DNA of 64,000 nucleotides from positions 274,217 through 338,216 of the forward strand of contig NZ_BMQQ01000004.1 in the NCBI RefSeq assembly GCF_014648195.1, given 5' to 3'. The position numbers were made by a program, and so were the translations under genes. A model generated the notes under the pieces. It was not told where the DNA came from, made no database searches, and saw nothing but the letters and a program-made list of their open reading frames with translations. Shown here one piece after another: positions 10,651-26,388 of this stretch. The number at the start of each line of letters is the position of its first letter. Positions within the stretch are counted from its first letter, which is position 1. This stretch comes from Streptomyces purpureus (GTDB lineage: Bacteria > Actinomycetota > Actinomycetes > Streptomycetales > Streptomycetaceae).

Positions 10651-11868
10651 TCACGTGCGGCGCCGCAACCGCCCGTACTGCTCCCCGCTCAGGCCGTACG
10701 ACCACCCCGCCGCCGCCACCGGGTCGTCCAGGAACGCCGGGACACCCAGCGCGTACTGCCGCCGCCGCCCGTCGGGCTCCACCGAGCCGTTCACCGTCAG
10801 CAGCAGCCGGGCCGAGCGGCCCCACAGCTCCCGCGGCACGTCGTAGAGGCGCAAGCGGAAGCCGGGGTTGCCGGGGTCGTCGGCCGTGCCGACGAGCCGG
10901 AGCCCGGCCTGCTCGATGTACGCGTCCCAGCCGATGCGTTCGATCGCGGCGCGCCGGACCTCCACATTGGTCTCGGCGTGGATCCGCTCCACCGTCGGCC
11001 CGGTGACCACCCAGCCCGGCACCCGCGCGCCGTGCAGGACGTACACCCCGCTCCCGTCACGGAAGCGGACCGCCGGGCCGTCGTCGTGGTGCAGCCGGAT
11101 CTCGCCATGGACGGCGCCGGGAGCTGGTTCGGTGTGTACGGCGGCCGGTCGCTCGGCCATCACGCACCGGCCCTCCCCCGCCCACCACCAGCCGGTGGAC
11201 CGGGCCAGCCGGGCCCACAGACCCAGCTGCGCGAGGTCGCCCGCCGCGAACCACCCGTGACCGATCCGGGCGCAGGCGTCGTAGTGACCGACCCAGGAGG
11301 CGTCGTGCTGCCCCCACCAGGTCAGCGGGTCGGGCGAGTCGGTGCGCAGCGCGCTGCGCACCGGGGCGCGGACCGCGTCGCCCAGCGACCCGCGCAGTGC
11401 GTCCCGTACGGCCACCCACAGCACCCGGTCCAGCGAGGCGCCGGCCGCGAGCGCCTCCCGCGGGGCCGTCGAGCGGAGCTGTTCCCAGTCCGGCTCGGGC
11501 TTGAGCGGCCGCAGGGACCACCCGTACCGATCAGGCCCGCGGACCGAGCTCTCCAGCCGGTCCCGCAGCTCCGACTGGAGCGTGGCGAGACGTGAGGGCG
11601 GCGACCATCCTTCGGCCCGATCGGGCAGCACACCCGTGTGCAGCCGCACGGGCCCGAAGGCGGGGTCGGTTCGTACGAGTTCCAGTCCGGCGGACGGAGA
11701 GTCCACCCAGGTGAAGCGGGGCGCCGGCGCGTCGATCAGCCGGTACAGCTCCCGTACGGCATCCTCGGCCTCCGCGCGCTCGGCGCTGTGCGCCGACAAG
11801 CCGTGGGCCAGCCATGCGTCACGGACCGCGCACGCCTCGCGTGCCCGGTCCATCTCGGCGGCCCTCAC
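10651..11868 (-). CDS. DUF6745 domain-containing protein
   Basis: A 405-residue soluble protein. The middle and C-terminal parts match DUF6745 as I remember it: TGWWWAGEGRCVMAERP, then EIRLHHDDGPAVRFRDGSGV followed by YVLHGARVPGWVV and the ATNVEVRRAAIERIGWDAYI segment. Function is unknown. The N-terminal 60 residues are helical and Arg/Ala-rich. The GTG at 11868 is used here; an ATG five codons on (11853), preceded by GAGGGCCGCCGAG, is equally possible. It leads a two-gene unit with the 161-aa protein. Confidence 0.7.
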   Translation of the reverse strand: MRAAEMDRAREACAVRDAWLAHGLSAHSAERAEAEDAVRELYRLIDAPAPRFTWVDSPSAGLELVRTDPAFGPVRLHTGVLPDRAEGWSPPSRLATLQSELRDRLESSVRGPDRYGWSLRPLKPEPDWEQLRSTAPREALAAGASLDRVLWVAVRDALRGSLGDAVRAPVRSALRTDSPDPLTWWGQHDASWVGHYDACARIGHGWFAAGDLAQLGLWARLARSTGWWWAGEGRCVMAERPAAVHTEPAPGAVHGEIRLHHDDGPAVRFRDGSGVYVLHGARVPGWVVTGPTVERIHAETNVEVRRAAIERIGWDAYIEQAGLRLVGTADDPGNPGFRLRLYDVPRELWGRSARLLLTVNGSVEPDGRRRQYALGVPAFLDDPVAAAGWSYGLSGEQYGRLRRRT

Positions 11869-11988
11869 CGCTCGATGGCGGAGGCCGCCTTTCCGTCGTT
11901 CACGACGTCAACAGAGATCATGCGCGCAGCATGCCATCCCAACTCCGCTCCCGGCAAAGGAATTTCGGCGGCGCAAAACAGGGGAGTG

Positions 11989-12405
11989 TCATGCGCGGGC
12001 GGCCCGGCGGTTCTCGTACCGCAGCGCCGCGCCGGTCACCACCGCCCCCACGCCCTCCCAGATCCCCACCCCGAGAAAGCCCTCCGCCGCCCGGCCCGAC
12101 AGCACCGCCGTCGTGAACACCGCGCAGGTCAGCAGCCGGAAAGGGACCGTCCAGCGGAAGAACGCCCGCCAGTCGGCCAAGGCCGCCAGCACGTAGTACA
12201 CACCCATGTTGAGCGCCGCCATCGACGACGCCATGAGGAACACCAGGGTGTGGTCTCCCTCCGCCCGGCGGGCCGAGGGTATGGGCTCGAAACCCATCAG
12301 CGAGATCATCACATCGGGGGCGACCAGCCCCACGACACCGAGCGCCGCGGCGAGCACGCCGAAGACCGCCATGGTCCAGCCGGACAGGGAACGAGGCAGC
12401 CGCAC
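11989..12405 (-). CDS. Four-helix membrane protein of unknown function
   Basis: A 138-residue integral membrane protein with four hydrophobic segments: about 12-32 (MAVFGVLAAALGVVGLVAP), 50-75, 85-103 and 110-130. Short charged ends follow the inside-positive pattern (RYENRRAARA tail). It looks like the small DUF-type membrane proteins common in actinomycetes; no catalytic residues are visible. It reads away from the upstream penicillin-binding protein's 3' end on the same strand with an 80-base gap. Confidence 0.7.
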   Translation of the reverse strand: MRLPRSLSGWTMAVFGVLAAALGVVGLVAPDVMISLMGFEPIPSARRAEGDHTLVFLMASSMAALNMGVYYVLAALADWRAFFRWTVPFRLLTCAVFTTAVLSGRAAEGFLGVGIWEGVGAVVTGAALRYENRRAARA

Positions 12406-12484
12406 GGAACTCCTCCGCCAACACAGGGACGTCGATCGACACCCCCTGCATATCGTGCGGCCCGCCCCGCCCCCGACCCAGGGT

Positions 12485-13933
12485 CTACTTCAGCGCCGCG
12501 GCCATCATCTTCTGCGCCACCGGAGCCGCCAGACCGTTGCCGCTCACCTCCGAGCGCGCCGCCCCCGAATCCTCGATGAGCACGGCCACCGCGACCTCCT
12601 TCCCGCTGGAGGAATCCTTCGCGTACGACGTGAACCACGCGTACGGCGTCTTGCTGTTGTTCTCGCCGTGCTGCGCCGTGCCCGTCTTGCCGCCCACCTC
12701 CGCGCCGTCGATCCGGGCGTTGCTGCCCGTGCCCTGCTCCACGACCGTCCGCATCGCGTCCCGCAGCTGCCCGGCGGTCTGGGACGACACGATCCGCGTC
12801 GATCCGGTGTCCTCGAACGACTGGAGCGTATTGCCGTCCCCGTCCACCACCTTCGACACCATGTGCGGTGCCATCAGGACTCCGTCGTTGGCAATGGCGG
12901 CCGACACCATCGCCATCTGCAGCGGCGTCGCCGTCACATCGAACTGCCCGATCCCCGACAGCGCCGTCTGCGCGTCGTCCATCTTCGACGGGTACACACT
13001 CGCGTAGGCACGCACCGGCACGTCCAGCTTCTGGTTGTTGAAGCCGAACTTCTCCGCCATCGCCTTCACCTTCGCCTGGCCCAGATCCACGGCCATCTTG
13101 GCGAAGACGTTGTTGCACGAATACCGCAGCGCGGTACGGATCGTGGCGTTCTCGCACGGCGCCGACGGGTTCTCGTTCTTCAGCACCCGCACCGTCCCCG
13201 GTAGCGTGTACGGATCCGGGCTCTGGGTCGCCGTGTCCACCGACCCGTACAGCCCGTCCTCCAGCGCCGCCGCGGCGACCACCAGCTTGAACGTCGAGCC
13301 CGGCGGCAACGGCTGCCGCATCGCCCGGTTCACCAGCGGCTTGTCCTCATCGGCGGTCAGCTTCCCCCACTCCGCCCCGTCCGTCCCGCCCGCGATCTTC
13401 GACGGGTCGTACGACGGCGTACTGACCATCCCCAGGACGCGGCCGGTCTTCGGATCGAGGGCCACGGCCGCGCCCTTCTTCGAGCCGAGCGCCTCGTACG
13501 CCGCCTTCTGCACCGCCGGATCGATCGTCGTCAGCACATCGCCCGGATCCTGCTGCTCACGGGTGAGCGTGTCCAGCGGACTCTTCAGCCGCGAGTCGGT
13601 CCCGTCGAGCACATCGGCGTAGACGCCCTCCAGCTGCGTGGCGCCGTACACCTGCGAGCTGAACCCCGTGACGGCCGCGTACAGCTCGCCCTGCGTGTAC
13701 GTGCGCTTGTACGCCAGATCACCACTCTCCGTCCTCTTCGAACCGGTGACCGGCGAACCGGCCACGATGATGTCCCCGAGCGGCCGCGCGTACTGCGCGA
13801 TCACCTTCCGGCGGTTGTTCTTGTCGTCCGCGAGTGCCCTGTCCTCGTACGCCTGCACCCAGGTCGCCCGCATCAGCAGGGCGGCCACCAGCAGCAGCGA
13901 GAAGACAGCCGCTCGCCTGATCGTTGTGTTCAT
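12485..13933 (-). CDS. Class B penicillin-binding protein (peptidoglycan transpeptidase)
   Basis: A D,D-transpeptidase that cross-links peptidoglycan outside the membrane. The 482-residue chain has one N-terminal anchor (about 8-25, VFSLLLVAALLMRATWV), a PBP dimerisation-type region (about 30-150), and the transpeptidase domain with all three motifs: PPGSTFK (nucleophile Ser, about 221), YSCNN (SxN, about 283) and KTGTAQHG (about 419). Length and anchor resemble streptomycete PbpA, but there is no ftsW/rodA neighbour to confirm a division role. It reads on the minus strand from 13933. Confidence 0.88.
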   Translation of the reverse strand: MNTTIRRAAVFSLLLVAALLMRATWVQAYEDRALADDKNNRRKVIAQYARPLGDIIVAGSPVTGSKRTESGDLAYKRTYTQGELYAAVTGFSSQVYGATQLEGVYADVLDGTDSRLKSPLDTLTREQQDPGDVLTTIDPAVQKAAYEALGSKKGAAVALDPKTGRVLGMVSTPSYDPSKIAGGTDGAEWGKLTADEDKPLVNRAMRQPLPPGSTFKLVVAAAALEDGLYGSVDTATQSPDPYTLPGTVRVLKNENPSAPCENATIRTALRYSCNNVFAKMAVDLGQAKVKAMAEKFGFNNQKLDVPVRAYASVYPSKMDDAQTALSGIGQFDVTATPLQMAMVSAAIANDGVLMAPHMVSKVVDGDGNTLQSFEDTGSTRIVSSQTAGQLRDAMRTVVEQGTGSNARIDGAEVGGKTGTAQHGENNSKTPYAWFTSYAKDSSSGKEVAVAVLIEDSGAARSEVSGNGLAAPVAQKMMAAALK

Positions 13934-21328: not shown

Positions 21329-21367
21329 ATGCGCGTCGAGATCTGGAGCGACATCGCCTGCGCGTGA
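21329..21367 (+). pseudogene. DsbA/FrnE-family oxidoreductase, 5' fragment at the left element edge
   Basis: ATG to TGA encodes only MRVEIWSDIACA. The first 11 codons are the usual start of DsbA/FrnE-type thiol oxidoreductases, MRVEIWSDIAC, to be followed by PWC. The next bases already belong to the inserted element, which supplies Ala and a stop. The rest of the gene resumes at 25717 in matching register. Confidence 0.88.
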
Positions 21368-21382
21368 ACCAACGGAACCACA
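21345..21382. other. attL-like left junction of the inserted element
   Basis: Host sequence ends in GCCTGC (21356-21361), the same hexamer as at the right edge (25717-25722). Six bases later begins ACCAACGGAACCACA (21368-21382), matching 14 of 15 bases of the inverted arm at 25698-25712. This is the layout of a hybrid host-arm/phage-arm site left by a large serine integrase; that enzyme class is inferred. Confidence 0.75.
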
Positions 21383-21475
21383 GGTTATCGCAGGGCCGTT
21401 GACCAGCGGTGACGAACGCGAAGATGCCCCGGTCGGCGCTCGCGGGGGAAGCGCAGACCAGGGCAGTGCGGGGTG

Positions 21476-22645
21476 TCAGCCCACGGCGGGGACGGGGTGG
21501 TCCGGGGAGTCGAGCCAGGCGCGTTCCATGCCGTCAGCCACGGTCAATCCGAACCGATCGAACCCGGGTCGCTCCTGTCCGTGCCACCAGTAGTAGGCGG
21601 CTTCCGTCTCGTCCCACAGCCGGCGGGGACCCGCCTGCACCACCGCGAACGAGTCGGCCCCGGGTTCGTAGTCGGCCGATGCCCACGACTCCGTGTCGGT
21701 GCTGTACGTCCACAGGGTGTACGTGCCGTCGTCATAGCGTTCCACGCTCCAGAACGCCCCAGACATCTGGAGCCCGATGGCGAACTGTTCCACCCACCCG
21801 CCAACCTCGGCGGGCGAAAGCGTGGTGGTGCTCCTGGTGCCGTCCGCAGGCCACTCGTGGCCGTTCAGATAGGCGTCATGCCGTGGTAGGTCCGGGCGCT
21901 GCTGCCGCAGGCGCATGAAGGCGCTGGAGCGCGTGAAGCGCCCGCTCGCCGTTCCGCCGTCCACGGTCAGCCTGACGATGGCTTCACCGCCGTACAGGGT
22001 TCCCCAGGGGGCCACGATCAGCCCGCCCGAACGCGTCTGGTCCACCCATGCCCGGGGAACCTCGCCGACCGAGCACGTCGCGATGACACGGTCATACGGT
22101 GCCCCTCCTGCGTACCCCAGCCGGCCGTCACCGACGATCACCAGCGGAGACAGACCCGCGGTGCGCTGGTTCTCCCCGGCCCCCTTCGCAACCTCAGGGT
22201 CGAACTCGATGGAGACGACGTTCTCGGCGCCGAGCCGGTGTGCGAGCAGTGCCGAATTCCAGCCCGTGCCCGTTCCGATCTCCAGCACCCTGTGCCCGTC
22301 TGCGACGCCGAGATCGGCCAGCATCGAGAACACCATGTGAGGCTGCGAACTGGAGTTGGAAGGCGTCTTGCCCAGCCCGTCCCCGGTGTGGCTGCCGTCG
22401 TCCCACTGGGTGGTCAGCGGGATGTCCGAGTACACCGCCGCGAACCACGCGTCCGGGTCCTCGGTGCGGTCCACCATGGGGTTCTGCCGGGTGCCGTCCG
22501 AGATTCCGGGCCAGATGCGGTCAGGTACGAACTTGTCCCGGGGCACCGCCTCGTAGGTCGGCAGCCAGTCCGATTGCAGAGCGCCCGAAGCAACGAGCGC
22601 GGAGGCGAGCCCCGAGGGGCCCACCTCCTCTTTGCGCGCGGCCAT
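21476..22645 (-). CDS. PIMT-type O-methyltransferase with C-terminal extension (RiPP-associated type)
   Basis: A 389-residue homologue of protein-L-isoaspartate O-methyltransferase. The Rossmann core (about 1-225) has the PIMT substrate region SSSQPHMVFSMLADLG, the AdoMet motif VLEIGTGTGWNSALLA and the VVSIEFDPEVAKGA acidic loop. Housekeeping PIMTs stop near 220 residues; the extra ~165 here (FMRLRQQRPDLPRHDAYLNG, VEQFAIGLQMSGAFWSVERY) is typical of PIMTs that act on ribosomal peptides, methylating Asp so that it closes to aspartimide. The start at 22645 is seven bases from the stop of the 47-aa peptide, its likely substrate. Confidence 0.85.
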   Translation of the reverse strand: MAARKEEVGPSGLASALVASGALQSDWLPTYEAVPRDKFVPDRIWPGISDGTRQNPMVDRTEDPDAWFAAVYSDIPLTTQWDDGSHTGDGLGKTPSNSSSQPHMVFSMLADLGVADGHRVLEIGTGTGWNSALLAHRLGAENVVSIEFDPEVAKGAGENQRTAGLSPLVIVGDGRLGYAGGAPYDRVIATCSVGEVPRAWVDQTRSGGLIVAPWGTLYGGEAIVRLTVDGGTASGRFTRSSAFMRLRQQRPDLPRHDAYLNGHEWPADGTRSTTTLSPAEVGGWVEQFAIGLQMSGAFWSVERYDDGTYTLWTYSTDTESWASADYEPGADSFAVVQAGPRRLWDETEAAYYWWHGQERPGFDRFGLTVADGMERAWLDSPDHPVPAVG

Positions 22646-22651
22646 CCGGTG

Positions 22652-22795
22652 CTACTTCTTCGCGGGGCCGGAGCCGTCGGAGCTGTTCCCGCCGCTCGTC
22701 TCGGACCCGCCGCCCCCGTGTCCGCGTCCGCTGCTGCCGTCGTCCTGCTGGCTTCCGCCCTGTCCGCTTCCGGTACCGCCGCCGTGCTTGGGCAT
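22652..22795 (-). CDS. Gly/Ser/Asp-rich 47-aa peptide, candidate RiPP precursor for the methyltransferase
   Basis: The peptide starts MPKHGGGTGSGQGGSQQDDG and ends SSDGSGPAKK. It has no signal peptide, no Cys and no hydrophobic core. It carries two Asp-Gly steps, DDGSSG and SDGSGP, the sequence context most prone to succinimide/aspartimide formation, which is what PIMT homologues act on. GAGGAG lies six bases before the ATG, so it is translated on its own although the frame stays open upstream. It sits immediately before the methyltransferase in one operon. Precursor role is inference. Confidence 0.65.
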   Translation of the reverse strand: MPKHGGGTGSGQGGSQQDDGSSGRGHGGGGSETSGGNSSDGSGPAKK

Positions 22796-22871
22796 CTCGT
22801 GCTCCTCAACTCGTGATGGTGTGGGGCTTTCACTTACTGACCCGCCCTGGCGGGGGCGGGGGCTGTGGGGG

Positions 22872-23077
22872 TCAGGCGGGCCTTGCGGTGGCCGGGTCGG
22901 CGTGCCACTCGCGGCCCCGTGTTCGGACCAGAGAAAGGCGATGGGGCGCTTCCTGCGTCGGTTCGGCGGGTCGGACGGGTCTTCCCACTCGGGGTCGAGA
23001 TCCCGCAGGATGCCGACACGACCCGCGCTGTCCTCCACCAGCTTTCCGACATCCCGTTTCGTGATCACTTCGGGCAC
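22872..23077 (-). pseudogene. Small cassette protein, probably frameshifted near its end
   Basis: From the GTG at 23077 the product reads MPEVITKRDVGKLVEDSAGR, then VGILRDLDPEWEDP and AFLWSEHG. Relatives I remember continue with a GREW-x-ADP-x-x-RPA ending. Here that ending (GREWHADPATARPA, then stop at 22872) sits in the next frame, requiring one missing base in the G-run near 22915. As it stands the frame misses this stop and runs on into the 47-aa peptide. The start overlaps the upstream gene by 13 bases. Function unknown. Confidence 0.5.
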
Positions 23078-23256
23078 TCGTTCTCGCGGTGCCGGTACAC
23101 CACGGTGGGCGGGGCACCGATCCGCGCAACGATGTCCCGGTGCACCTGTTCAAGGCTGCCGATAGGCCCGTCGCAGTTCGAACACCTCTCACCCGTAGGC
23201 GCGTAAGTCAGGTACTCCGATTTCGCGCCCGCATTCGATCTGGTTTGGCTCGCCAT
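23065..23256 (-). CDS. Small CxxC protein of unknown function
   Basis: A 63-residue protein, MASQTRSNAGAKSEYLTYAP, with RCSNCDGPIGSLEQVHRD and a final NECPK. The CxxC and the late Cys could bind zinc. Homologous tiny proteins accompany XRE/DUF5753 regulators in streptomycetes as I recall. I chose the ATG at 23256 over the 23274 codon. It is cotranscribed with its neighbours in the element. Confidence 0.6.
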   Translation of the reverse strand: MASQTRSNAGAKSEYLTYAPTGERCSNCDGPIGSLEQVHRDIVARIGAPPTVVYRHRENECPK

Positions 23257-23347
23257 CGTCCGCCGTCCCCTCACGTGATCCGACGACGACCACGCTACGG
23301 AGAGCGAAAGCCCAATCCTCAGTGCATTGCACGAGGTTGCACGCGAG

Positions 23348-24196
23348 TTACCCGAGGGCGTCCAAGGCTGATGTGATCAGCGCGCGGGCGGAGGCCCCGT
23401 ACACCGCGAGCGCTGCAAGCTCCGCGAACGTGTCGGCGTAAAGCGCAATCTCGCTCGGCTGCGTGAGCGTGAGGTAGCCGGAGATCAATTCGACGTTGAC
23501 CTGTGCCGTGTCGTAGATCCAGAACCCTTCAGCCGGCCAGCGCTCCCGGTCCGGCGCCATGGGGACGACTCCCAGACTGACATTGGGCAGTGAGGCAACG
23601 GAGATCAAGTGGCCGAGCTGACCGGACATGACGTCAGCGCCGCCGATTCCCGTCCGCAACACCGACTCCTCGACGAGGAACGCGAACCGCCGGTCACCCT
23701 CGTACAGGACCCGCTGACGCTCCATGCGGGCGGCCACGGCTTCGGCCACGTCGTCCACCAGGCCGCGCCGTCGTTGGATGGCTTGTAGCGCTGCCGTCGT
23801 ATAGGGCCGGGTCTGGATCATGCCGGGCACGAGCCACGATGAGTATGACCGGAAACGGCGGGTGCGCTGGTACAGCGGTAGGCGGGCTTCCTGCGCCTGC
23901 CTGAGCCCGGCCCGCTCCATCCGTCGCCAGCCGACCCACATGCCCTCGGCTGTCCGCAGCATGGCAATGAGGTCTTCGGTCTGGTCGTCGGCTCCGCAAG
24001 CCGTGCACCACGCCCGGATGTCGTCCGCTGACGGGGGCGTACGGCCGTTCATGATCCGGGAGGACTTGGACCGGCTCCACTCGCAGCGCTCGGCGAGTTC
24101 GGCCCCGGTCAGCCCGGCATCCCGGCAAAGCTCCCCGAGTCGATCCGCGAGAGCCTGCCGGGCTTGCTGGGCACTGGAAGATGCAGAGACAGCCAT
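23348..24196 (-). CDS. XRE-family regulator with DUF5753 C-terminal domain
   Basis: A 282-residue DNA-binding protein. The N-terminal XRE helix-turn-helix (about 8-65) reads RLGELCRDAGLTGAELAERC, EWSRSKSSRIMNGRTPPSAD. The C-terminal DUF5753/Scr1-type domain (about 95-275) has YSSWLVPGMIQTRPYTTAAL, FLVEESVLRTGIGGADVMSG and the closing YADTFAELAALAVYG. Such regulators occur by the dozen in streptomycetes, each next to a small partner gene. It sits 10 bases from the stop of the DUF6879 gene, so both are in one operon. It probably controls the cassette. Confidence 0.88.
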   Translation of the reverse strand: MAVSASSSAQQARQALADRLGELCRDAGLTGAELAERCEWSRSKSSRIMNGRTPPSADDIRAWCTACGADDQTEDLIAMLRTAEGMWVGWRRMERAGLRQAQEARLPLYQRTRRFRSYSSWLVPGMIQTRPYTTAALQAIQRRRGLVDDVAEAVAARMERQRVLYEGDRRFAFLVEESVLRTGIGGADVMSGQLGHLISVASLPNVSLGVVPMAPDRERWPAEGFWIYDTAQVNVELISGYLTLTQPSEIALYADTFAELAALAVYGASARALITSALDALG

Positions 24197-24206
24197 GGGT
24201 ACGTGA

Positions 24207-24737
24207 TCAGTCGGGCCGGTACTCCGCGTGGGGAACCGCGCGCTCCCACGCTGCCTCGTACGCACTGACGTACTGCGCGGCCAACGTCGCGTCGTGGACT
24301 ACCTCCATGCGAGGCCCGGTCCACTGACCCTCGCCGCTGAAGTGGTGCAGGATCACGGTCTCCTCATCCATGACCCACCCGTCCAGGGCGGGGAGCAGGA
24401 GATCACGGGCCCGAGAACGCGGCAGCCAACGTACTTCCTCGCCCGCTGCGACGTTCGTGAAGGTGCCGTCGTACTCGTAGCGGACGTAATCGCTCAACGG
24501 CTCCGAGACGACGCGCAGCCGGCGCATGACCACACCGCGGCGTGTCGTCTCGGCCACCACGTCCAGCCACGAGCGCCACCACGACTCCCGGTCGGCCGGG
24601 TCGTACCGGTGCCCCTCCTGCCAGCGGATGAACTCGGGGTCATCCCGCATGTAGCTGTCCCGCATCTCAAGGTGCATCGCCGAGCGCTGCGCCTTCGCGA
24701 GGCATTCACGTACCGCTGTTGCCACCGTTGTCCTCAC
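24207..24737 (-). CDS. DUF6879-family protein
   Basis: A 176-residue soluble protein of the DUF6879 type: AQRSAMHLEMRDSYMRDDPE, the VVMRRLRVVSEPLSDYVRYE segment and EEVRWLPRSRARDLLLP. These proteins accompany XRE/DUF5753 regulators, function unknown. The GTG at 24737 overlaps the upstream gene by 32 bases; a GTG at 24725 is an alternative with GAGG seven to ten bases upstream. Confidence 0.75.
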   Translation of the reverse strand: MRTTVATAVRECLAKAQRSAMHLEMRDSYMRDDPEFIRWQEGHRYDPADRESWWRSWLDVVAETTRRGVVMRRLRVVSEPLSDYVRYEYDGTFTNVAAGEEVRWLPRSRARDLLLPALDGWVMDEETVILHHFSGEGQWTGPRMEVVHDATLAAQYVSAYEAAWERAVPHAEYRPD

Positions 24738-24972
24738 TGTCCGGGCGGGGGATGAACTGGAGCATGTTGGCAGGCAACCGGATCACGGTCTCGTGGTCCG
24801 GCACGTCCGTGGAGTGGCCCGGAACCGAGCCGACTTCCTGAGCCTGCCGGATCGTCTCGTCGTCCGCCTTCCACGACTGGATGATCAGGTCTCCGGTCTC
24901 CTCCTCTACCCAGATCGTGGGCGAGCCGTCATCGGGGGTGTTGGGCCAAATCCCCAGGAACCTTAGGGCCAT
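24706..24972 (-). CDS. Small cassette protein upstream of DUF6879
   Basis: An 88-residue acidic protein, MALRFLGIWPNTPDDGSPTI, with WVEEETGDLIIQSWKADDET and HETVIRLPANMLQFIPRPDS. It is the usual small first gene of XRE-DUF6879 cassettes in my memory. AGGAG lies seven bases before the ATG at 24972, which rules out the long upstream extension. Function unknown. Confidence 0.7.
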   Translation of the reverse strand: MALRFLGIWPNTPDDGSPTIWVEEETGDLIIQSWKADDETIRQAQEVGSVPGHSTDVPDHETVIRLPANMLQFIPRPDSEDNGGNSGT

Positions 24973-25253
24973 TGGGCACTCCTGTACCGAGTCGGTTGCA
25001 CGGATGTGCACGAGCCTCACCCCTCCAGCGCATCGGCGCAAGAGCGCAGCGCGACGCACGCTGTGCTGCCGACTGAAAGCACGAAAGCCCCGCACCGGCC
25101 ACCCTGGTACTGGCGACGCGCGCGGGGCTCTGCGATGAGGGAATTTCTCGGCTGAATCAGGTGACCGACCGTATTCGCTGGGCGCGGGATCCCCCAAGCT
25201 CACTGAGGCGATGGCAGCGGACTCGTTTGAAATCAATCTGCACTCTGAAGTAT
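24973..25253. other. Leader/intergenic region of the element's regulator operon
   Basis: No gene is visible here. It must contain the promoter of the minus-strand cassette and holds the hairpin at 25086-25129. Base composition is notably AT-richer towards 25250. Confidence 0.5.
25086..25129 (-). terminator. Hairpin between the HNH gene and the regulator cassette
   Basis: AGCCCCGC (25086-25093) pairs with GCGGGGCT (25122-25129) around a long loop that itself folds partly. It lies 125 bases after the HNH stop on the minus strand and 114 bases before the cassette start, so it either ends the HNH transcript or attenuates a read-through one. Confidence 0.6.
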
Positions 25254-25676
25254 TCACCGCCGCCAAAACGACCTAATCAGCCATGCGAGTTTTTTGCCTC
25301 CCTGCCGTTCTGGCGTGAGAGGGGTGGGGGGTACCCCCCTGGTCGAGCCGTGCCCTAGGACCGGATCGGCTTGACGTTCGCGGCAGCCCCCCCCGCCCGG
25401 TTGACGCTTAGCGGTCTCTCGGTTGTGGCAGCGAACGCACAGCGGGCGGAGATGCCTCGCCCCGTCCGGATCCGCCTCACCCCGTGCCACCAGCTCTCGC
25501 TGGCTCAAGGGGAAGTGGTCCGCGACGTCGCCGCAGAACCGCACAGCAGACACATGGTTCCGGTACAGGTACGCCCGGCGGACGCGCTGCCAACAAATGT
25601 CGTACGCGGGTTCTATTCTAGGGACCGAGGGATTCCTTCCCGGGTTAAAGGAGGGGCGAAGGTTTCCAAGACACAC
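25254..25676 (-). CDS. HNH endonuclease at the right edge of the element
   Basis: A protein of up to 140 residues. The core reads VADHFPLSQRELVARGEADP and then HLRPLCVRCHNRETAKRQPG, the D-H and C-x-x-C-H-N pattern of phage-type HNH nucleases. In phages such genes lie near the packaging end and terminase. The first ~25 residues do not look like family sequence, so the true start may be a later codon or the 5' end may be trimmed by the integration site 20 bases upstream. It points to a phage origin for the element. Confidence 0.65.
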   Translation of the reverse strand: MCLGNLRPSFNPGRNPSVPRIEPAYDICWQRVRRAYLYRNHVSAVRFCGDVADHFPLSQRELVARGEADPDGARHLRPLCVRCHNRETAKRQPGGGGCRERQADPVLGHGSTRGVPPTPLTPERQGGKKLAWLIRSFWRR

Positions 25677-25689
25677 GTTTCCGCAGGTC

Positions 25690-25735
25690 AGGCGTGGTGT
25701 GGCTCCGTTGGTCCATGCCTGCCCGTGGTGCTACA
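25690..25735. other. attR-like right junction of the inserted element
   Basis: TGTGGCTCCGTTGGT (25698-25712) is the inverted partner of the left arm, then four bases, then the shared GCCTGC (25717-25722) and the resumed host gene. Joining both element ends gives arms symmetrical about a 16-base centre whose middle TG lies inside the shared hexamer, as expected for attP of a serine integrase. Confidence 0.75.
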
Positions 25736-26388
25736 TCGGGAAGGCGCGCTTCGAGAAGGGGCTCGCGGCCTTCGCCCACCGTGAAAAGGTCGAGGTCGTG
25801 CACCGTTCCTTCGAGCTCGACCCGGGCCGGGCCAAGGGGGACACCGCGCCGGTGGTGGACATGCTGGCGCGGAAGTACGGGCGGAGCCTGGAGGAGGCGC
25901 GCGCGATGGAGGAGCGCGTCGCCGCCAACGCCCGCGCCGAGGGGCTCGGCTACCGCACCGAAGGCCGTGACCACGGCAACACCTTCGACATCCACCGGCT
26001 GCTCCACCTGGCCCGTGAGCGCGGCCGGCAGAACGAGCTCCTCGACCTCGCCTACCGGGCGAACTTCGCCGAGGAGCGCTCCGTCTTCGACGCCGAGGTG
26101 CTCGTGCGGCTCGCCGTCGAGGCGGGTCTGGAGGAGGCCGAGGTCCGTGCCGTCCTCGCCGACGAGGACGCCTACGCCGAGGCCGTACGCTCCGACGAGC
26201 GCGAGGCGGCCGAGCTCGGCGCGAACGGTGTGCCGTTCTTCGTCCTGGACCGCCGCTACGGCGTCTCCGGCGGACAGCCCGCCGAGGTGTTCACCCGGGC
26301 GCTGGAGCAGGCATGGGAGGGACGTGTGCTCCAGCCCGTGGGCGGCGAGGCGGAGGTCTGCGACACGGACGGCAGCTGCGCCGTCTGA
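25717..26388 (+). pseudogene. DsbA/FrnE-family oxidoreductase, main 3' part
   Basis: From the junction the host frame resumes as CPWCYIGKARFEKGLAAFAH, with the CPWC thiol site, a helical insertion (RDHGNTFDIHRLLHLARERG) and the cis-Pro segment GVPFFVLDRRYGVSGGQP, ending CDTDGSCAV. With the 5' fragment at 21329 it makes a normal 232-residue DsbA-family protein. It has lost its start codon; a GTG at 25699 inside the element arm is in frame and could give VAPLVHACPWCY, but no good ribosome site precedes it and the first beta strand would be altered. Confidence 0.88.

Follow-up and report, generated by a model that had tools for sequence, protein, structure and literature searches.

A 4,361-bp segment splitting a dsbA-family gene of Streptomyces purpureus is very probably the remnant of a phage-satellite-like element

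In the 64,000-nucleotide stretch of Streptomyces purpureus DNA analyzed here (the window), which is part of contig C4 of a 7.54 Mb genome in 94 contigs (G000), a dsbA-family gene is interrupted by a 4,361-bp segment. We conclude that this segment is very probably the remnant of a phage-satellite-like element that was inserted by its own large serine integrase and later lost that enzyme in an internal deletion of ~4 kb. Because elements with a large serine integrase occupy the same site in three other Streptomyces genomes, the window copy was most likely inserted by such an enzyme, a reading drawn from the arms of the attachment (att) sites and from gene order.

The split dsbA-family gene and its attachment sites

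The interrupted gene belongs to the DsbA family (PF01323), in a subfamily that we take to be FrnE, and the interruption falls at the codon for the first Cys of its CPWC motif. On the upstream side, translation starts at the ATG at 21329 and reads MRVEIWSDIAC up to the TGC codon at 21359-21361, which is followed by GCG TGA. On the downstream side, CPWCYIGK restarts in register at the TGC codon at 25720-25722, and the stop codon ends at 26388. The original prediction that the gene is split with its reading frame kept was thus confirmed in the sequence; the interval it gave, 21329-26388, spans the whole split gene, whereas the element itself occupies only ~21359-25719. GCCTGC is indeed common to both edges (21356-21361 and 25717-25722), as had been noticed, and since the adjoining bases differ (G/C after it and C/T before it), the core measures 6 bp and the element 4,361 bp.

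A query across the right attachment site (attR) matched 339 of 392 genomes of the genus. Among the matches listed, only those in G000 and in a second genome, G149, ran into the element side, while the others began at or just after the core. We read 75 dsbA loci from 70 genomes, of which 28 came from the attR query, 29 from a query with the right end of the element and 18 from additional picks of the attR query. The predicted uninterrupted copies were present at 74 of the 75 loci (69 of the 70 genomes), with [S/N/A]DI-type residues directly before CPWC; one of them, at L106, has the N-terminus MRVEIWADIA. As the N-terminus stands directly before CPWC at these 74 loci, the interruption in the window is an insertion. 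The 75th locus (L066) is the occupied site of a further genome, G584.

The left arm ACCAACGGAACCACA (21368-21382) matches the inverse of 25698-25712 (ACCAACGGAGCCACA) at 14 of 15 positions, and the joined ends form a dyad around a TG inside the shared hexamer, with 18 of 24 pairs outside the TG; both statements of the original prediction were borne out. By chance, at least 18 pairs occurred at 5 of 63,940 window centres, and 18 pairs were reached by 4 of 200,000 random joins of window points, neither figure being corrected for the few centres that the core allows. In the elements of the window, G149, S. celluloflavus and G584, the dyad around TG has 18, 15, 20 and 16 of 24 pairs, the window thus doing better than two of its three integrase-bearing relatives. 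The left attachment site (attL) has in common with attR the stretch GCCTGC in the window; for G149 this stretch is GCCTGCCCGTG, for S. celluloflavus TGCCC and for G584 GCCTG. The TG, which is the dyad centre and with which the first Cys codon of CPWC begins, comprises the sole bases common to the shared stretch at all four sites. The arms and the TG centre agree in all four elements and the dinucleotide is non-palindromic; from these alignments, the TG would fit as the likely crossover point in every one of them.

In all four elements, the dyad is flanked on its right side by CAGGTCAG and on its left side by an oppositely oriented [C/T]TGACCAGCG; these motifs are possibly an accessory or directionality-factor site. 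A phiJoe int-attP primer also contains CAGGTCAG (PMC5311408).

The arm with one free base (ACCAACGGANCCACA) was found in 7 of the 392 genomes, twice in G000 and once in each of six others. No dsbA start, CPWC stretch or inner-side GCCTGC was present in the 115 bases around each of the six matches outside G000; at the L003 match, GCCTGC lies only on the outer side of the arm. A reversed-pattern control also occurred in 7 genomes, so the 15-mer is at chance level away from the dsbA site. Two att patterns searched against IMG/VR gave 0 matches each.

Table 1. Features of the split gene and of the inserted segment, in window coordinates.
Position	Strand	Feature	Support
21329..21367	+	dsbA 5' piece: MRVEIWSDIAC, one element codon (GCG) and the stop TGA (21365-21367)	Sequence; empty-site copies elsewhere
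21356..21385	+	attL, with the GCCTGC core, whose TG (21359-21360) would suit as crossover, and the P' arm ACCAACGGAACCACA (21368-21382)	Also at this place in three relatives
21399..21408	+	Left motif beyond the dyad, TTGACCAGCG; the three relatives have CTGACCAGCG	
21476..22645	-	PIMT-like O-methyltransferase, 389 amino acids, PF01135 / phrog_13505; shared with G584 and PapayaSalad-group Streptomyces phages	
22652..22795	-	47-amino-acid glycine-rich peptide adjoining the methyltransferase; close match to PapayaSalad gp25	
23065..23274	-	69-amino-acid open reading frame (ORF), no Pfam or NCBIfam match	
23348..24196	-	Helix-turn-helix (HTH) / DUF5753 regulator	
24207..24737	-	DUF6879 protein	
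24706..24972	-	88-amino-acid ORF, no PHROG match	
25254..25676	-	ORF with HNH endonuclease remnant, homologous from ~25594 downwards; it lacks the N-terminal part and has a changed WCVLCG segment and an additional tail	
25595..25615	.	Putative deletion scar; flanks 4,025 bp apart in G149 with the integrase between	
25616..25719	+	Conserved right end of the element	
25684..25691	+	Right outer motif CAGGTCAG, present in all four elements	
25698..25722	+	attR, with the P arm TGTGGCTCCGTTGGT (25698-25712) and the GCCTGC core, whose TG (25720-25721) would suit as crossover	
25699..25701	+	In-frame GTG (ATG in G149 and S. celluloflavus, GTG in G584), candidate start for the dsbA 3' part	
25720..26388	+	dsbA 3' part, open for 222 codons from CPWC to the stop; DSBA-like thioredoxin domain PF01323	

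Integrase-bearing relatives and the probable internal deletion

As predicted, larger elements that have these edges and also carry a serine integrase were found in G149, S. celluloflavus NRRL B-2493 and G584, and no tyrosine integrase was seen at the four occupied sites. Together with the empty sites, these three elements support the proposal that the dsbA gene would serve as the bacterial attachment site (attB) of a large serine integrase. In G149, attL and attR are as in the window and lie 9,698 bp apart. Beside attR is a serine recombinase gene with PF00239 and PF07508 (24.7 bits for the latter, against a cut-off of 21.1) that is frameshifted near its 3' end; as this gene (L044:2747-4428) lies in two frames, the element may be immobile too, unless the shift is a sequencing error. 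S. celluloflavus (L047), the one relative confirmed by a GTDB genome scan with the G149 integrase, has a 9,357-bp element with an open integrase gene (566 amino acids as used; phrog_95), followed in order by a Cys-rich ORF, scaffold, major head protein, HNH, terminase small subunit (TerS), regulator and cargo genes. In a family-wide search with the right end, which matched 42 of 394 genomes at E <= 1e-12, only G000 and G584 extended into the element. The G584 element is 10,519 bp long and its integrase gene is open (559 amino acids; phrog_95), the product being 59% identical to the S. celluloflavus enzyme; it also has HNH, TerS and regulator genes and, at its left end, counterparts of the window methyltransferase and peptide.

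The integrase adjoins the right end in all three relatives, each of which has integrase, TerS, HNH and regulator genes; S. celluloflavus alone adds scaffold and capsid. Frames of at least 330 codons in the three are integrase, regulator or methyltransferase, plus two antisense to other genes, which, judged by gene size and with no dedicated search, leaves no room for a terminase large subunit (TerL) or portal of usual size. From this gene content (integrase, TerS and regulator, with no gene of TerL or portal size) the three relatives appear phage-satellite-like. Their left-end cargo varies, with a nucleotidyltransferase and a sulfatase in G149 (L044:10260-11979) and a kinase-like gene in S. 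celluloflavus (L047:18070-18900). In S. celluloflavus, the right end is present a second time, in decayed form, to the left of attL (L047:19148-19224), and dsbA-like codons come after it, as though the same site had been occupied by an earlier insertion.

Integrase homologues were found at 17 loci in 15 of the 392 genomes at E <= 1e-80. Within the ~1.5 kb read on each side, dsbA was present only at the G149 locus (90% identical), and the arms, sought beside all 17 integrases, matched in full in G149 only. In G079 (L050, around 1406), an integrase of 57% identity at a different site has a partial right arm (14 of 17) next to it; the arm may belong to the same family and have changed its target. 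A search of IMG/VR with the integrase gave five candidate stretches, none of them related, and the nearest phage integrase was that of Rowa, at 38% identity.

In the window element, no integrase gene lies beside the att sites, and the ORFs scanned include no integrase, TerS or packaging-diverting gene, only the HNH remnant. The G000 genome has no PF07508 match and no integrase homologue at E <= 1e-80, and its sole PF00239 match over the cut-off is a 298-amino-acid ORF on contig C30; as PF07508 is barely sensitive to this integrase family, the negative result for G000 draws on the PF07508, homologue and PF00239 searches together. In the window, the 3' part of the HNH gene (25285-25594) and the right end with dsbA (25616-25760) are 21 bp apart, against 4,025 bp between their counterparts in G149, where the integrase is located within that interval. 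The HNH remnant also lacks the N-terminal sequence of the three relatives, and its WCVLCG segment is altered. A deletion explains both the 21-bp fusion and the truncated HNH gene. Originally, the integrase was thought to have been either lost or never carried; its absence stands, and the fusion of right end and truncated HNH gene, compared with G149, narrows the choice to loss, most likely in an internal deletion of ~4 kb.

In the course of events that we propose, the large serine integrase of a satellite-like element would have inserted it into the dsbA-family gene, with the crossover likely at the TG, and an internal deletion of ~4 kb would later have removed the integrase and cut the HNH gene. 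With no integrase found in the genome, the window copy is probably stuck unless an integrase is supplied from outside. As neither att site looks damaged, an integrase acting in trans would be expected to excise the segment and so restore the dsbA gene.

Points against this history and alternative explanations

Several observations weigh against this account. The HTH protein is just 23% identical to that of S. celluloflavus, the DUF6879 gene has no match in G149 or S. celluloflavus, and no G584 DNA match was found between the methyltransferase region and the HNH remnant. This middle part thus has no close counterpart in the relatives, so cargo must have been exchanged too, which speaks against one simple deletion. 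Just three relatives were found in the genomes searched. Integrases 57-60% identical are located at other sites; as the 59%-identical enzyme of G584 is nevertheless at dsbA, site use does not follow overall identity. The attB shows little symmetry (7 of 24 pairs). Finally, the PF07508 negative is weak when taken alone, and G000 is in 94 contigs.

The missing integrase could also mean that the segment is a working non-autonomous passenger, akin to a miniature inverted-repeat transposable element or a satellite of a satellite, that is moved in trans by the integrases of full-length family members. Both arms and the TG core are kept, with the dyad better than those of two relatives, and the window has no surplus of amino-acid changes in its downstream dsbA part, allowing a recent insertion. 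We nevertheless consider this unlikely, given that an integrase was not found in G000, that G000 holds only the two known exact copies of the arm and no third, and that no other integrase-less copy appeared among the matches listed for the attR query and for the right-end search. The exchanged middle part raises the thought that the segment never had an integrase, a cargo block having taken both ends by recombination with a resident copy. Its middle genes show at most a distant relationship to those of the three relatives, and HTH and DUF6879 genes are neighbours on many Streptomyces plasmids. The segment does have the HNH gene of the family, though, cut at the scar, and the methyltransferase and peptide at the left end resemble those of the integrase-bearing G584 element, so that we rate such an origin as distinctly unlikely. 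That a gene was cut at the scar is what favours deletion over lack of gain.

Skin and the comK phages are examples of programmed, reversible insertion, and the dsbA gene might be switched in the same manner: the insertion is precise and in a conserved gene, attR retains CPWC, and precise excision would restore the gene. Such a switch is highly improbable, however, as no integrase to drive excision was found in G000 and the great majority of the loci read are empty. Lastly, the shared core is only 6 bp, as might be expected of a chance dyad at a transposon insertion or of an assembly artefact. The identical insertion point and arms in three other genomes contradict this through independent copies, and random joins rarely reached the dyad of the window; we regard the idea as hardly credible. 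Loss of the integrase from a satellite-like element inserted at its own attB therefore remains the explanation that we favour.

A candidate restart of dsbA, the cargo and known systems

In all four elements, an in-frame ATG or GTG lies in the P arm, 21 bases ahead of the Cys codon. The frame of the downstream dsbA part stays open for 222-229 codons; that of the upstream part ends immediately in three elements and runs on past CPW in G584. The predicted new N-terminus reads M/V-A-P/S-L/S-V-H/Q-A/G-CPWC, with the conserved CAGGTCAG upstream. The phage attachment site (attP) might therefore spare its target, the P arm supplying a start codon from which the host would still make a CPWC protein with a new N-terminus; we put this forward tentatively and consider it rather unlikely. 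The arm is likely also the site of the integrase, so its conservation alone is no proof of a start codon. If the idea were true, the attachment site would be an integrase binding site and a gene start at once.

We compared ratios of nonsynonymous to synonymous change (dN/dS) by setting medians against the 5-95% range of intact pairs, a lenient test, in an alignment where 142 intact pairs were just 45-55% identical in DNA. The medians of the window dsbA 3' part were inside the range in all five identity bins, as were those of G584 (5 of 5). G149 was within it in 5 of 6 bins, with 0.622 against an upper limit of 0.608 in the 0.50 bin (n = 2). S. celluloflavus was within it in 2 of 3 bins, including the main 0.70 bin (0.541, upper limit 0.553; n = 60), and above it in the 0.65 bin (0.526 vs 0.323-0.433; n = 11, with only 9 intact pairs); this raised value in one bin counts against the target-sparing idea. 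For the window, the result is compatible with retained function as well as with a recent insertion. The idea of judging the age of the split from relaxed selection was rejected, as the window medians lie inside the intact-pair range throughout.

At the left end of the element, the methyltransferase and peptide (21476-22795) have counterparts at L009:17861-19200 and L095 around 11330-12673, the pair thus occurring in the window, G584 and PapayaSalad-group phages. The window left end is 66% identical to G584 over 1,486 bp, and the pair matches eight phage records (five phages, including PapayaSalad and Alderaan of Austintatiousvirus) at 72-74% DNA identity. The nearest named model for the methyltransferase, TIGR04188, gave 321 bits, below its cut-off of 380. 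A PIMT-like enzyme here adjoins a short Gly/Asp-rich candidate precursor, as in imiditides and pamtides, and by its sequence the pair looks like an imiditide-type ribosomally synthesized and post-translationally modified peptide (RiPP) pair carried by phages. PapayaSalad was considered as a parent of the element, given the methyltransferase and peptide in common, and rejected: the best dyad in this phage lies next to its serine integrase and bears no relation to that of the window, so the cargo alone looks shared. Segments of Streptomyces plasmids match the stretch 23331-25003, which contains the HTH/DUF5753 and DUF6879 genes, the longest match being 74% identical and on S. clavuligerus pCLA1.

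The phiJoe type (PMC5311408) resembles the present family in its serine integrase, in an attP of at most 50 bp with imperfect inverted repeats around a dinucleotide, and in an attB within a protein gene that is filled in several Streptomyces by elements varying in size and content; in S. coelicolor it is occupied by the 3.9-kb SCO2603 element. Unlike the site in the window, the phiJoe attB lies in the gene of a B12-binding radical SAM protein, 74 bp from its end, and its dinucleotide is GG; the SCO2603 element retains its integrase, whereas the window element, at the CPWC codons near the dsbA 5' end, has none.

As described in two reports (PMC10690885, PMC10654092), capsid-forming phage-inducible chromosomal islands (PICIs) and candidate Mycobacterium PICIs are similar to the three relatives, which have integrase, regulator, HNH and TerS genes (in one case with scaffold and capsid) and variable cargo at one end. 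Capsid-forming PICIs add TerL, portal and connectors, whereas the relatives showed no gene of that size, and the window copy further differs from PICIs in that it appears to have lost integrase and TerS. The satellites MulchRoom and MiniFlayer likewise have Streptomyces hosts and capsid, scaffold, TerS and HNH genes; they also have TerL and portal, and the MulchRoom integrase is of the tyrosine type (PMC10690885). Imiditide and type I pamtide pairs (PMC13001092, PMC10787088) are like the pair found here in placing a PIMT-like methyltransferase beside one short Gly/Asp-rich peptide; the pair here, in contrast, is on a mobile element and in phages, and the word "phage" occurs 0 times in the main texts of those reports.

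Our literature search, which left most subscription papers outside its scope, found nothing linking an integrase attB in Streptomyces with DsbA, DSBA oxidoreductase or FrnE. As far as these searches show, the site, the element family and the decay series are new, while the mechanism is already known. The family offers a serine integrase for which attP and attB are predicted and whose gene is open in two members, and could become a new site-specific integration tool. Its members show the decay of such an element into an orphan insert, and its attachment site, to judge from the reading frames, may double as a translation start. The cargo ties a RiPP-like methyltransferase/peptide pair to phages and their satellites.

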